Positions 33,262-37,126 of a stretch of 38,102 nucleotides of DNA are shown one piece after another. Each line of letters starts with the position of its first letter. Positions within the stretch are counted from its first letter, which is position 1. The DNA is from Crocinitomicaceae bacterium (GTDB lineage: Bacteria; Bacteroidota; Bacteroidia; Flavobacteriales_D; Crocinitomicaceae): positions 1-38,102 of the forward strand of contig JAQWYK010000022.1 of the NCBI GenBank assembly GCA_029254025.1, in the 5' to 3' direction. The notes beneath the pieces are model-generated. The model was not told the DNA's origin. It did not search any database and was given only the letters and a program-made list of their open reading frames with translations. Both the position numbers and the translations under genes were made by a program.

Positions 33262-33867
33262 TTAACCCGCTTCAGCAACCACTTCTTGAACTTCTGGCAA
33301 ATGCTGTTTTAAAAGTTGCTCGATTCCTCCTTTTAGGGTTGCTGTAGAGGACGGACAACCTGAACAAGCACCTTTCAGAACAACTGTTACTGTTCCATTA
33401 TTGTAGTTGACAAATTCGATGGCGCCACCATCACTCTCTACAGCTGGACGAACGTATTCATCGAGTAAGTCTCTGATCGCATCATCATATTCGGAGGGAG
33501 CATATGCTTTACCTGAAGTTGCAGATTCTTGAACAGCCTCTATAGGTTTAGCTTCTGGAAAGCGAATCAATATTTCATTGCCATCTGCAATATAATTACG
33601 AATAAAGTCACGCAATTCAACCTGGACAAAATCCCAAGAAAGCGCCTCGTTTTTGGTGATAGTTACAAAGTTCGCAGCAAGGAAAACACCCTTCACAAAT
33701 GGAAAGTTAAACAACTCTTCCGCTAAAGGAGAAAAACCTTTCGCGTCTGCTTGCGACAAAAATTCCACTGATTTATCCGGAGGTAGCAGGTAGTTGTTTG
33801 CTACAAACTTCATAGTGGCTGGGTTAGGAGTCATTTCAGCGTATATCGTAACAGGAATTTTAGACAT
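33262..33867 (-). CDS. NifU-like Fe-S scaffold/carrier protein (Nfu type)
   Basis: The 201-residue protein carries the N-terminal Nfu domain (about 5-95, with TPNPATMKFVAN and FPFVKGVFLAANFVTITK) and the C-terminal NifU domain (about 125-198) with the cluster-binding CxxC in GACSGCPSSTATLKGGIE. Proteins of this layout accept Fe-S clusters and hand them to target enzymes. Length is normal. A TAATTTTG -7 element lies on the minus strand at 33894-33887, 19 nt before the start. It is divergent from the Cys-rich secreted protein gene. Confidence 0.94.
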   Translation of the reverse strand: MSKIPVTIYAEMTPNPATMKFVANNYLLPPDKSVEFLSQADAKGFSPLAEELFNFPFVKGVFLAANFVTITKNEALSWDFVQVELRDFIRNYIADGNEILIRFPEAKPIEAVQESATSGKAYAPSEYDDAIRDLLDEYVRPAVESDGGAIEFVNYNNGTVTVVLKGACSGCPSSTATLKGGIEQLLKQHLPEVQEVVAEAG

Positions 33868-34004: not shown

Positions 34005-34035
34005 TTTGTTACTTCCTATTTTAGTTTTAAATTTG
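34005..34035 (+). promoter_or_regulatory. Promoter of the metal cluster, placed for a leaderless mRNA
   Basis: TTTG (34005-34008), 19 nt, TAAATTTG (34028-34035) is a perfect consensus match. The -7 element ends only 4 nt before the ATG at 34040, so transcription should start at or within a few bases of the start codon. Other promoters in the window lie about 17-38 nt ahead of their genes. Confidence 0.72.
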
Positions 34036-34039
34036 CAGT

Positions 34040-34492
34040 ATGAAACAGTTGATGTTTAGCACTTTCTCTTTGCTTTTAGTTGCCCAGATTTTTTTGGGTT
34101 CTACGGGTGTGATTGTGTATGAACATCATTGTAAGAAGGACGGTACAAGTCGCAGCTTGTTTATTGAGCAGGAGCATGGTAGGGATGCTATCAAAGAAGT
34201 TAAGAGTTGTTCGGCAAATTCATGCTGTTCCTCTGCCGAGAAAGTGGCTTCCAATTCCTCTTCGTTTGATAAAGAAGTTTGTTGCAGTAATTCCATTGAC
34301 TATATTCAGCTCGATACTGATTTGGCGCTTGAAAAAAATGAATTACAGTTCAAGGTCTTAGTTACAATGCCTACTGAGTCTGCTAATGAAAATCCTCCTG
34401 CCGCACTAGCTGAGACTTCTTCCTCTTATAGAGGCCCTCCTCCAAGTTCTATTTCGGAGCGATTGGCTTCCCTTCAAACCTACATCATTTAA
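34040..34492 (+). CDS. Cys-rich secreted protein, HYC_CC_PP family
   Basis: The 150-residue protein has an N-terminal signal segment (about residues 1-22), then the pattern that names the family: His-His-Cys (29-31), Cys57, Cys-Cys (62-63), Cys-Cys (81-82) and a Pro-Pro-Pro run (133-135). The six Cys and the His pair look suited to bind a soft metal such as copper or zinc, but no role is known for the family. It is the first gene of a three-gene cluster with a TonB-dependent receptor (35 bp later) and a heavy-metal-associated lipoprotein. A second ATG at 34052 is possible if transcription starts later than expected. Confidence 0.8.
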   Translation: MKQLMFSTFSLLLVAQIFLGSTGVIVYEHHCKKDGTSRSLFIEQEHGRDAIKEVKSCSANSCCSSAEKVASNSSSFDKEVCCSNSIDYIQLDTDLALEKNELQFKVLVTMPTESANENPPAALAETSSSYRGPPPSSISERLASLQTYII

Positions 34493-34527
34493 GACACTCA
34501 TTTACAAGTAAAAAGAGTGTTAATTAA

Positions 34528-36759
34528 ATGATTTTTACAATGAATTTTATAAAAATAATTAGTGTAGTTGCATTATTGAGCAGCTACAGTTTTGGTCAAA
34601 TTGACGGAAAAGTATACGGACTGGTTGATGATAAAAAAGTCGAGCTGTTCGGTGCTGAAGTTTTCTTTAAAAATGGAAGGCAAGGAAAGACCACTTGTGA
34701 CGAAGGAGCGTTTTTGTTTGAGTTTCTCCCGAAGCTTCCTGACACGCTTATAGTGCGTGCACTAGGGTATTACCCCGATACAATCCCGATTAGTAAGAAT
34801 GAGAAGCAACTTCACTTGGAGGTGGTGCTTTATCCAGATAATTTGTTGGAGGAGTTTGTTTTCGTTCAGAAAAGAGAGAATTCATCCATCATGCGCTTAG
34901 ATCCTAGGAATGTGGAAAATCTCAGCAGTGGTGAGTTACGTAAGGCAGCATGCTGTAACCTGTCAGAGTCTTTTGAGACCAACGCTACAGTCGATGTGAA
35001 CATGACAGATGGTGTCTCAGGAGCTAAGCAGATAGCAATGATGGGGTTGAGTGGGGTATACACTCAAATTCAAATGGAGAATATTCCTATTATTCAAAAT
35101 TTAAACGTAGCCCACGGTATGAATTCTATTCCTGGTACCTGGATTGAGTCAATACAAATCACCAAGGGAACAGGAACAGTTGTGAATGGTTATGAGTCGA
35201 TGGTTGGGCTGATAAATTTGGAGTATCGTAAACCGGATGATCTTGAGCGACTATTTGTGAATGTATACGGTAATATTCGTGGAAGAGGAGAACTCAACGT
35301 TCACGGAGGAAAAAAGATAAGTGACAAACTGAGTACGGCTTGGTTTGTTCATGGGGCTACGGTTCAAGGTGAAAATGATCGCAACAACGATGGGTTTCGT
35401 GATATTACTATGGGTGAAGACTTGATTTTTTTAAATCGATGGAAGTATGCGAGTGATCGTTTCGTTGGACAGCTTACGTTGAAGGGGAATCTTTCCCAGA
35501 AATATGGAGGTCAACTTGGATACGAGCGAGGAGATACAGCTAGTATTTATGGGGTATTTAATGAAAATCGGAATCTTGAGGTTTCAGGGAAAACAGGTTT
35601 TATATTTAAAAAGCCCGCGACATCAATAGGTGTTATTTATTACGCTAAATATTACGATATGATAGCCCAATTTGGGAAGCGTGAATTAGTAGCTCAACAA
35701 TCTAGGGGGTACGTTAATGCTGTTTACGATGGGATATTGGGCACAACTCTGCATAAGATTAAAGCAGGGCTAAGTTTTGTGTACGACGACTTACATCAAG
35801 TAGTGACAAGTGACTTGCCTGCTGGCTACTCAGAATTGTCGTTAATTCGAACCGAAATAGTTCCGGGTGCATTTGCTGAATACACCTATACTGGTTTACG
35901 TTCTACGTTAGTAGCTGGAGTACGTCAAGATTACCACAATATGTTTGGTTGGCAGTTTACACCTAGATTTAACTACAAACATGTTGTTACAGAGAACATG
36001 GACGTTCGGCTTACTGCCGGTCGAGGTTTTAGAGTCTCCAATTATGCCACGGATAACATCGGGTTGTTGGCGACAAACCGCCCATGGGTAGTAGCGGCAG
36101 ATATCCAGCCGGAGGTTTCTTGGAATTTTGGCGGTAGCATACTTCAGCAATTCACATTGTTCGGGGAAAAAGCGCTTTTTACAGTTGATTATTTCCATAC
36201 ACTTTTTGAAAATCAATTAATTGCTGATCGAGATCAAGATGTTTCGCAAATTGTATTCAATAATTTAAGTGGTCGTTCGTTTTCAAATGTCTTACAAGTG
36301 GAATTAAGGTTTTCACCGCTAAAAAATCTTGAAATAAAATCTGCATACAAGTATTTAGATGTTCGTGCTACTATGGGAGGAAGTCTTCTTGAGAAAATGA
36401 TGGTTCCTCGCCATAGAGGATTCGCAAATATTGGCTATTCAACAAGGAATAAGAGATGGGAATATGATTTAACAGCTTCAGTATTTGGTGTACAGCGCTT
36501 GGCGGTTGTAGAGCTCGCTGAAGATGTGCTTTCCGAAGATAATCGCTCCTCAATTTTCCCTATGTTGAGCGCTCAAATTACACATGTTTTTAAAAAGTTT
36601 GAGGTTTACCTTGGGGGAGAGAATTTGTTAGACTTCAGATTAAAAGATCCGATAATAGATGCGCAAAACCCGTTTAGTGAGCGATTTGATGCTACAAGGG
36701 TGTGGGCTCCGATTCTCGGAATTAATATTTATGGAGGAATTAGATTTACAATTAAATAA
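34528..36759 (+). CDS. TonB-dependent outer-membrane receptor, probable metal transport
   Basis: The 743-residue protein has a signal peptide (about residues 1-24, ending SYSFGQ), a carboxypeptidase-D regulatory-like beta domain (about 25-100), a TonB plug (about 105-235) and a 22-strand-type barrel to the C-terminus. The plug has the motif AACCNLSESFETN with adjacent Cys142-Cys143, followed by KQIAMMGLSGVYTQIQMENIPI. Cys-Cys at this place is unusual for TonB receptors and is suggestive of metal or metallophore handling. An ATG four codons in (34540) could also be the start. The flanking Cys-rich protein and CxxC lipoprotein support a metal role; the metal is not known. Confidence 0.92.
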   Translation: MIFTMNFIKIISVVALLSSYSFGQIDGKVYGLVDDKKVELFGAEVFFKNGRQGKTTCDEGAFLFEFLPKLPDTLIVRALGYYPDTIPISKNEKQLHLEVVLYPDNLLEEFVFVQKRENSSIMRLDPRNVENLSSGELRKAACCNLSESFETNATVDVNMTDGVSGAKQIAMMGLSGVYTQIQMENIPIIQNLNVAHGMNSIPGTWIESIQITKGTGTVVNGYESMVGLINLEYRKPDDLERLFVNVYGNIRGRGELNVHGGKKISDKLSTAWFVHGATVQGENDRNNDGFRDITMGEDLIFLNRWKYASDRFVGQLTLKGNLSQKYGGQLGYERGDTASIYGVFNENRNLEVSGKTGFIFKKPATSIGVIYYAKYYDMIAQFGKRELVAQQSRGYVNAVYDGILGTTLHKIKAGLSFVYDDLHQVVTSDLPAGYSELSLIRTEIVPGAFAEYTYTGLRSTLVAGVRQDYHNMFGWQFTPRFNYKHVVTENMDVRLTAGRGFRVSNYATDNIGLLATNRPWVVAADIQPEVSWNFGGSILQQFTLFGEKALFTVDYFHTLFENQLIADRDQDVSQIVFNNLSGRSFSNVLQVELRFSPLKNLEIKSAYKYLDVRATMGGSLLEKMMVPRHRGFANIGYSTRNKRWEYDLTASVFGVQRLAVVELAEDVLSEDNRSSIFPMLSAQITHVFKKFEVYLGGENLLDFRLKDPIIDAQNPFSERFDATRVWAPILGINIYGGIRFTIK

Positions 36760-36778
36760 TAAAACAAAAAATAAAAAG

Positions 36779-37126
36779 ATGAAAAATGTATTAAGTTTAG
36801 CTGTTATGGCAATGTTAGTAGTAAGTTGTGGAGTTTCTAATGGAGCAGATGCTCAAAAAGTAACTGCTAAAATTATGACGAATGCCGAGTGTGGAATGTG
36901 CAAGGATAGAATTGAAGGAGCACTAAATTATGAGAAAGGAATTGTGTTTGCAGAATTAGATGTTCCTTCGAAAGTGGTTACTGTAAAGTTTAAAAATGAT
37001 GTAATCAGCTTGGAACAAATTCGTTCAACTATTTCCAAATTAGGATACAATGCTGATGAGATTAAAGCAGATGCTACAGCCCAAGGAAATCTTCCCGCAT
37101 GTTGTCAACCAGGAGGAATGAAATAA
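36779..37126 (+). CDS. Heavy-metal-associated (HMA) domain lipoprotein
   Basis: The 115-residue protein starts with a lipoprotein signal (lipobox LVVSC, Cys17) followed by an HMA fold (about 25-95). The metal-binding loop reads NAECGMCKDRIE, with Cys38 and Cys41, as in copper chaperones such as CopZ. A second Cys pair (Cys108-Cys109, in ACCQPGG) ends the protein. The ATG at 36779, 20 bp after the receptor stop codon, fits the lipoprotein signal; a longer frame from 36659 only overlaps the receptor gene. As a membrane-anchored metal binder it would pass metal to or from the receptor system. Confidence 0.9.
   Translation: MKNVLSLAVMAMLVVSCGVSNGADAQKVTAKIMTNAECGMCKDRIEGALNYEKGIVFAELDVPSKVVTVKFKNDVISLEQIRSTISKLGYNADEIKADATAQGNLPACCQPGGMK

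Follow-up and report, generated by a model that had tools for sequence, protein, structure and literature searches.

The 38,102 nucleotides analysed here, which we call the window, are positions 1 to 38,102 of contig JAQWYK010000022.1 from a Crocinitomicaceae bacterium (Bacteroidota; GenBank assembly GCA_029254025.1), and they carry three genes in series on the + strand: a small open reading frame (ORF) of the HYC_CC_PP family, hereafter HYC, a TonB-dependent receptor, and a protein with an HMA domain. The present study suggests, with a probability that we put at roughly 0.6, that these genes are a copper-handling operon run by a translation-time switch. Specifically, the computational comparison shows the receptor and the HMA protein to be one conserved unit, sometimes a single polypeptide, and the best reading of this pair is a copper importer that passes its metal to the periplasmic HMA protein, where we infer both the metal and the direction of transport. 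HYC is probably a translation-time copper sensor and not a carrier, because it is found before efflux genes in genomes without the receptor, keeps a fixed spacing of cysteines, Pro-Pro motif and stop codon, and is followed by a co-varying hairpin. A sequence-only reading of the same DNA had proposed a route for metal across the outer membrane in which HYC was a periplasmic carrier; the fusions described below bear out its pairing of receptor and HMA protein, whereas the efflux contexts, the peptide ruler and the hairpin speak against its role for the first gene.

The ORF list of the window confirms the three cysteine-bearing ORFs on the + strand in the order given by that reading, and the Cys motifs that it described are present in all three proteins and conserved among homologues. 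The intergenic gaps are short, as it held, although its values of 35 and 20 bp become 47 and 19 bp once the receptor start is set to the ATG at 34540, which is probably the correct one because the two candidate ATGs are one base closer together in the same-genus genome G001, where only the second is in frame. An ORF at 36659-37126 shares the frame of the HMA gene, and the start at 36779 yields a signal region like that of the relatives. The window's genome (G000) has a completeness of 99.91%.

The three families travel together. At order level, among 50 loci (the window and 49 relatives), HYC is present at 47, an HMA gene at 48 (two of them fused) and all three at 46; HYC is missing from L039 and L045, HMA from L023, and both from L046, whose contig ends 94 bases upstream. 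In a scan of named genomes from the Flavobacteriales, Cytophagales, Chitinophagales, Bacteroidales and others, counted up to 10 kb on each side, HYC accompanies the receptor at 74 of 80 loci, HMA at 70 and both at 65, and HYC lies upstream of the receptor on the same strand at 73. The co-occurrence that the sequence-only reading proposed to look for in other genomes is therefore found. A receptor match was present in 117 of 296 genomes sampled across the phylum, and at a further 40 loci hand-picked from these, HYC and/or HMA adjoins 30 of 34 receptors with a Cys-Cys pair in the plug and none of six without it (L171, L172, L198–L201), the four exceptions being L193, L195 and L196, with the plug variant CCDLAGCF, and L197. 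Within the order a receptor match (E ≤ 1e-20) occurs in 57 of 59 genomes, the window's own included, and the best match in G002 and G024 is only a 26%-identical paralogue; by this sequence comparison the receptor is close to core in the order.

The HMA protein scores 37.1 bits against the Pfam HMA model (cut-off 24.8) and also matches MerP and ZntA-like models, below cut-off. Its CxxC (C38/C41) is invariant in 61 sequences, its C108-C109 pair is kept in at least 90%, and its structure model, with a predicted local distance difference test (pLDDT) score of 86.4, has CopZ copper chaperones as nearest folds. The label of lipoprotein that it had been given finds a footing in a lipobox-like VVSC, read by eye, but this motif is missing from many relatives. 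At L049, L051, L115, L124, L173, L174 and L175 an HMA domain with a terminal Cys-Cys is fused ahead of the receptor, and tandem double-HMA fusions precede the plug at L162–L165 (recognised by eye from the sequences). Fused in this way, the HMA domain lies close to the plug and on its periplasmic side; these fusions are the strongest evidence that HMA and receptor work together. At L016, L091, L105 and L106 a YVTN-type beta-propeller protein is encoded between the receptor and HMA genes or beside them.

The receptor has CarbopepD_reg_2, Plug and TonB barrel domains, all above the Pfam cut-offs. Its plug pair, Cys142-Cys143 (34951-34956; numbered from 34528), does not vary among the 20 receptors that a motif-independent search gave, nor among the 69 of the named-genome scan, which used AACCNLSE as one of two patterns and therefore cannot serve for counting the plug motif. 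The receptor model (69 sequences; pLDDT 89.7) adopts a TonB-receptor fold nearest to Cir, Fiu and BtuB, with OprC among the neighbours, and sets Cys142-Cys143 between two short plug helices. Membership of the OprC group was considered and rejected, since no OprC-type model is among the NCBIfam matches at E up to 0.1 and the plug motif differs, the residues following C142/C143 containing no CxxxM. The alignment with OprC begins by setting OprC residue 73 against model residue 118, which puts OprC Cys143 at about residue 188 here and the plug Cys-Cys about 45 residues ahead of it (aligned ranges, gaps ignored). Other plug types were also seen. The receptors at L193, L195 and L196 have CCDLAGCF in place of CCNLSESF and neither HYC nor HMA nearby, and a group without the plug Cys-Cys (L171, L172, L198, L199 and L200) has, about 20 residues further into the plug, a CxxC (DCAVCGTNNIRINGM, for example) and is possibly another metal receptor. 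In a record of Parabacteroides distasonis, a TonB receptor whose plug reads ACCNLAESF occurs together with an HMA gene; the gene before this receptor encodes a protein with Cys-Cys pairs and, 18 residues short of the end, a Pro-Pro, and the HYC profile does not match it.

Copper is suggested by what lies around these operons. Linkage to copper ATPases, another expectation of the sequence-only reading, is found in some lineages, where the ATPases were recognised by motif, and not in the window's genome. In the Cytophagales the recurrent neighbours include CPx-type ATPases (L087, L091, L100, L102, L105 and L108; motif, not model), CopZ-like proteins (below cut-offs), HMBD proteins, a multicopper oxidase and a Met/His-rich protein without a family match, and Csp1-like proteins, below cut-off, are encoded near the receptor at L107 and L110; ATPases adjoin the operon at L168 and L184 too. 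Should the route carry another soft metal (zinc, mercury or silver), which we consider very unlikely, the sub-threshold MerP and ZntA-like matches would be in keeping with it, as would ZnuD among the receptor's fold neighbours, a place that it shares with many TonB receptors; against this stand neighbour genes that are copper genes, the first rank of CopZ for the HMA fold, and the fact that no mercury or zinc gene was recognised by eye in 32 recurrent neighbour clusters. Nor was any zinc regulator recognised by eye among the clusters listed, where no model search was aimed at one. An AraC-type regulator is encoded near the receptor at 13 of 80 scan loci, in Cytophagales (e.g., L102:12164-12730); it has no Pfam HMA match, its N-terminal CDRC stretch is reminiscent of HMA, and it is a candidate copper-binding regulator.

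The window's genome has no match to the TIGR01511 copper ATPase, a single HMA match (the gene described here), one COX1 match and three SCO matches. Thirteen of the 59 genomes of the order, its own included, are without a TIGR01511 match at E 1e-20 (several are incomplete, G021 at 59%), and all 13 carry the receptor. Copper in these cells would need to follow a periplasmic route. Co-occurrence with the heme-copper oxidase proved uninformative as a test of purpose, COX1 being present in 283 of 296 genomes.

Two copper-responsive leader peptides guided our analysis of HYC. In the available portions of the respective papers, as of the others cited below, CutF of the Rhodobacter capsulatus cutFOG operon is described as the product of the operon's first gene, small and exported, with a Cys motif and a C-terminal proline motif, followed by a hairpin that shields translation of the next gene (PMC9973294), and CruR (Bp2923, DUF2946) of Bordetella pertussis, whose gene precedes bfrG/crtA, as a small protein that senses copper while still a nascent chain (PMC9426467). 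Spacing, hairpin, arm co-variation and operon context were therefore tested for HYC. The window protein matches NCBIfam NF047658 (HYC_CC_PP) at 28.2 bits, marginally above the cut-off of 28, and at 20.8 bits, below it, in a six-frame genome search. It has a hydrophobic N-terminus, His29-His30-Cys31, Cys62-Cys63, Cys81-Cys82, R131-G-P-P-P135 and the C-terminal end QTYII. Among 62 aligned HYC proteins, C31 and C81 are invariant and C62 and C82 are kept in at least 90%; mean column identity is just 16%, while the cysteines, Pro-Pro and C-terminal end are retained. (Alignment rows remained for 68 of 78 receptor, 60 of 65 HMA and 61 of 73 HYC loci after near-duplicates, long N-terminal extensions and fusions were removed by eye.) In the 51 of 62 homologues that have a His-x-Cys, the hydrophobic stretch ends a median of 2 residues ahead of it. 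Secretion of HYC, as the sequence-only reading had it, is at most putative.

The distances toward the C-terminus behave as a ruler. From the last Cys-Cys to Pro-Pro the median is 55 residues (interquartile range 54-56, n = 54) in HYC proteins encoded with the receptor and 56 (55-56, n = 17) in those encoded with other operons, and in both types Pro-Pro lies 18 residues and the last Cys-Cys 74 residues from the end; 18 of 20 loci of the second type were used, L222 and L226 being omitted for uncertain starts. The N-terminal side is more variable than this Cys-Cys-to-stop part. In the window protein the corresponding distances are 52, 18 and 70. Pro-Pro is absent from the last 45 residues of seven of the 62 proteins, and the majority of tails have PP without a preceding R-A/G; the window protein has RGPPP. 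The last three residues up to the stop keep an aromatic-x-aliphatic pattern in 41 of 62 and 15 of 18 HYC proteins while the hairpin sequence there varies, and this end may belong to a pausing signal or act as a degradation tag. When the window is compared with G001, 15 synonymous and 18 nonsynonymous changes are counted over the 150 codons of HYC, and 121 and 21, respectively, over 240 codons of the receptor; the HYC RNA thus looks constrained beyond its protein, because its synonymous changes are about five-fold rarer.

Transcription appears to begin at the very edge of HYC. A Bacteroidota-type promoter pattern, of which the window has three examples against 0.37 expected, ends 4 bases upstream of the HYC start codon, and the mRNA is probably leaderless for this reason. 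The TAnnTTTG box, placed at -12 to -5 in the available part of the source (PMC9723704), ends no more than 8 bases before HYC in 60 of 115 unique loci and in 50 of 1039 control ORFs. HYC usually, though not always, stands free at the 5' end of its operon.

At the junction of HYC and receptor a predicted hairpin pairs the last HYC codons and stop with the bases immediately 5' of the receptor start. In the window, segment 34430-34560, which includes a second hairpin, folds with a z score of -4.7. When the junction was folded from the last 40 bases of HYC through base 20 of the receptor ORF, mean z was -2.51 over 89 loci, 61 of them below -2, compared with +0.24 at 66 receptor-HMA junctions (3 below -2), -0.71 at background same-strand junctions (35 of 160 below -2; 160 of 227 were folded) and -0.36 over 59 stretches of HYC interior (4 below -2). 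An upstream arm pairs with the start region at 81 of the 94 unique loci, compared with 141 of 319 junctions of the background, and the start codon lies within the 3' arm in 33 of 56 hairpins. The two arms also fit each other. Over 97 loci the cognate arms pair at a mean of -10.64 kcal/mol and swapped arms at -5.96 ± 0.23, the best of 5000 shuffles reaching -6.76. As the pooled loci contained four duplicates (L057, L058, L070 and L075), the main counts were redone without them, giving -10.76 against -5.95 ± 0.24 kcal/mol (best -7.16) for 94 unique loci, in 65 of which the cognate arms are in the best tenth; 54 representatives below 60% identity give -11.02 against -5.98 ± 0.32 (best -7.24). Taken singly, 46 of 97 loci beat all 20 shuffles of their own head. 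The control arms of receptor-HMA junctions show no such fit (-2.76 cognate, -3.06 swapped; 42 loci), and background gene pairs differ slightly (-6.33 against -5.94 ± 0.21; 120 used). The values are -9.11 against -6.25 ± 0.61 where HYC precedes other operons (16 loci), and -8.67 against -5.92 ± 0.89 where it directly precedes HMA (7 loci, only one of them clear alone). The predicted hairpin at the start region of the next gene thus co-varies between its arms and would correspond to the shielding hairpin of CutF.

The junction hairpin might instead be an intrinsic terminator, or one of the generic hairpins of intergenic DNA. These are frequent, as the 35 background junctions below -2 attest, and a terminator-like pattern lies at 34563-34588, about 30 bases 3' of the hairpin and within the receptor gene (three such sites in the region, 2.4 expected). 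Yet the arms are AT-rich (median 28% GC) with a T-run after only 9 of 56 hairpins, and the frequency of strong folding, the upstream pairing of the start region and an arm co-variation that is absent or slight in the control junctions all set these junctions apart, which makes this explanation highly improbable. An Rfam S15-leader match at 34566-34639 is below threshold and was taken as chance.

HYC is not confined to receptor operons. Twenty HYC loci of other operons were compared on their downstream side. Eighteen come from genomes in which no receptor is matched at E 1e-50, and the other two from G309, which has a weak best match. CusA/CzcA pumps follow HYC at 13 of the 20, as judged by eye; of five CusA loci checked with models, three are above the TIGR00914 cut-off and two are part-length pieces. 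HMA-, HMBD- or Met/His-rich proteins follow at L210, L213, L218, L224, L225 and L226 (by eye), and no recognised copper gene stands beside HYC at L217. HYC as a folded metal carrier was demoted after it was seen before efflux genes. This alternative holds that the operon takes up copper with HYC as a real periplasmic or secreted copper binder, be it a protein metallophore or a membrane-anchored relay, and that the hairpin merely tunes translation. The conserved cysteines, the His-x-Cys, the hydrophobic N-terminus and the position of HYC ahead of the receptor would suit a carrier, and the available part of one report discusses the secreted copper protein azurin as a partner of OprC (PMC11836926). 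A carrier would account less well for HYC without a receptor ahead of efflux genes, for cysteines, Pro-Pro and C-terminal end kept at 16% identity, for the rarity of synonymous changes, and for a rigid Cys-Cys-to-stop distance beside a free N-terminal half, and we regard it as unlikely.

The same efflux contexts bear on a second alternative, copper defence, in which receptor and HMA protein would be made at high copper and bind or take in copper or its chelates for detoxification, with HYC switching them on as CutF does. The shared HYC architecture ahead of CusA/CzcA genes and the Cytophagales operons that adjoin copper ATPase, multicopper oxidase, Met/His-rich and Csp1-like genes are consistent with it. 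TonB receptors, in contrast, are importers, and the receptor is near-core in the order and present in all 13 of the 59 genomes without a copper ATPase match, some of them incomplete, so that we find defence rather unlikely as the purpose of the operon.

By analogy, HYC is a leader with the architecture of CutF and CruR, without detectable sequence homology to them. Like CutF, it is a small Cys-motif protein with C-terminal prolines and a hairpin at the next start; unlike CutF, which precedes a multicopper oxidase and bears CxxxC, it has a His-x-Cys and two Cys-Cys pairs. A large part of the CutF-like proteins in that paper's survey is from Bacteroidota, with RND-type (resistance-nodulation-division) pumps and TonB proteins among the neighbours over all phyla (PMC9973294). 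The survey's filter required fewer than 150 residues and PP within the last 15, and the window HYC falls outside it, with 150 residues and a PPP that starts 18 from the end; some HYC proteins may be among the survey's lists. CruR heads an operon of three genes, the second of which encodes a copper-linked TonB receptor, and has a Cys motif and C-terminal RAPP at conserved spacing (PMC9426467), but its CXXC lies 45 residues from RAPP, as against about 55 from the last Cys-Cys to Pro-Pro in HYC, it has a 162-base gap and Rho-dependent termination where HYC has a median gap of 69 (106 loci) and a start-region hairpin, and in the HYC operon the third gene encodes an HMA protein. According to the available part of an EMBO J paper, RAPP and RGPP are strong arrest sequences and TonB-class RAPP/RGPP leaders occur in Gram-negatives generally, the copper-factor class not being seen there in Bacteroidota (PMC12992588).

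The receptor resembles CrtA and OprC in kind, these being copper-tied TonB receptors (PMC12914433, PMC8610252), and OprC is a fold neighbour (Z about 31); it differs in having no CxxxM at its plug Cys-Cys and in having an HMA partner and fusions. An OprC-like TonB receptor of Bizionia argentinensis, also a member of the Bacteroidota, has been proposed from sequence for copper uptake; in the available portion of that paper it is said to carry CxxxM-HxM, and the other TonB proteins of the organism are set aside (PMC11213822). The HMA protein shares fold and CxxC with CopZ and MerP, and CopZ structures are nearest to it, but it has an N-terminal signal region and an extra C-terminal Cys-Cys and falls below the NCBIfam cut-offs. 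The parts are known singly: a metal-sensing nascent leader, a copper TonB receptor and an HMA chaperone. In the open-access literature searched, we found no description of the plug-Cys-Cys receptor family with its HMA partners or fusions, nor of the HYC ruler with a start-region hairpin in Bacteroidota, and the HYC family is named in no paper.

In the mechanism that we propose for the translation-time switch, HYC would be exported during its translation, and copper at its cysteines would alter the dwell of the ribosome near the end of the ORF. About 74 residues separate Cys-Cys from the stop, which, at the tunnel and translocon lengths that we assume, would put Cys-Cys just past both at that moment. 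A ribosome finishing HYC would occupy the 5' arm and free the receptor start region; with the ribosome short of the end, or departed, the hairpin would close over that region, and its state would decide whether receptor and HMA protein are made. The receptor would then take copper across the outer membrane, and its plug Cys-Cys would hand the metal to the CxxC and Cys-Cys of the periplasmic HMA protein, which would supply periplasmic copper sites, for example, the heme-copper oxidase via SCO proteins. Copper could either prolong or shorten the ribosome's stay, with the operon on when copper is scarce, as for CruR, or abundant, as for CutF. Either sign of regulation would be conceivable, since CruR turns off with copper and CutF on, according to the available portions of their descriptions (PMC9426467, PMC9973294), and since HYC precedes both importer-like and efflux genes.

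Several observations weigh against this interpretation. The linkage to copper genes is concentrated in a few lineages. Importer-like and efflux genes are preceded by one and the same HYC ruler, and a single sign of regulation would be odd for one of the two. At 17 of the 64 loci that have 1.5 kb upstream, another ORF on the same strand ends no more than 100 bases ahead of HYC. Searched against Pfam at E up to 10, the window HYC gave a single unrelated family and no DUF2946, the CruR/CutF family, which is also missing from the 25 listed of the 37 families matched by any of 62 HYC members. At the hairpin, pairing of the start codon itself is no distinctive mark (72 of 94 loci; 213 of 319 in the background), the cognate arms of 29 among the 94 unique loci do not reach the best tenth, and compensatory changes in a fixed register are kept in 26% of cases, compared with 24% in a slid control. 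Finally, G294 retains HYC, receptor and HMA, then an ATPase, without a COX1 match, which counts against a purely respiratory purpose of the operon.

Table 1. Features of the HYC-receptor-HMA operon in window coordinates.
Feature	Position	Strand	Basis
Bacteroidota-type promoter, TTTG-N19-TAAATTTG	34005..34035	+	Pattern; both boxes unchanged in same-genus genome
HYC_CC_PP leader ORF	34040..34492	+	150 residues; NF047658 28.2 bits; conserved Cys and spacing
Arg-Gly-Pro-Pro-Pro codons, candidate ribosome-pausing motif	34430..34444	+	First Pro 18 residues from end
Predicted RNA hairpin	34484..34532	+	5' arm 34484-34503; 3' arm 34512-34532
TonB-dependent receptor	34540..36759 (ORF list: 34528)	+	Pfam domains, structure model, start-codon comparison
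HMA-domain protein	36779..37126	+	115 residues; Pfam HMA, Cys conservation, structure model

A gene for an Nfu-type iron-sulfur scaffold occupies 33262-33867 of the window on the opposite strand and is conserved as a neighbour at 13 of the 80 scan loci.

Outer-membrane copper import in Gram-negative bacteria has been experimentally shown for few receptors, none of them from Bacteroidota in the literature examined. If the present interpretation is true, a widespread receptor family with its own HMA acceptor would be a new copper route, and it could account for the supply of the copper oxidase in a cell that has no copper ATPase match. The HYC family would, in addition, become a testable switch, as peptide, ruler and hairpin are all easily mutated. 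On a wider scale, and with about an even prospect of being right, HYC_CC_PP would be a Bacteroidota-wide copper sensor built on a nascent-chain ruler, in which a metal site emerges across the membrane as the ribosome reaches the stop codon on the 5' arm, so that a leaderless mRNA reads periplasmic copper. Without detectable homology to CruR or CutF, one such device would control both import, through a new plug-Cys-Cys receptor family and its HMA partners, and efflux across the phylum. The same HYC device, at any rate, seems to serve both.

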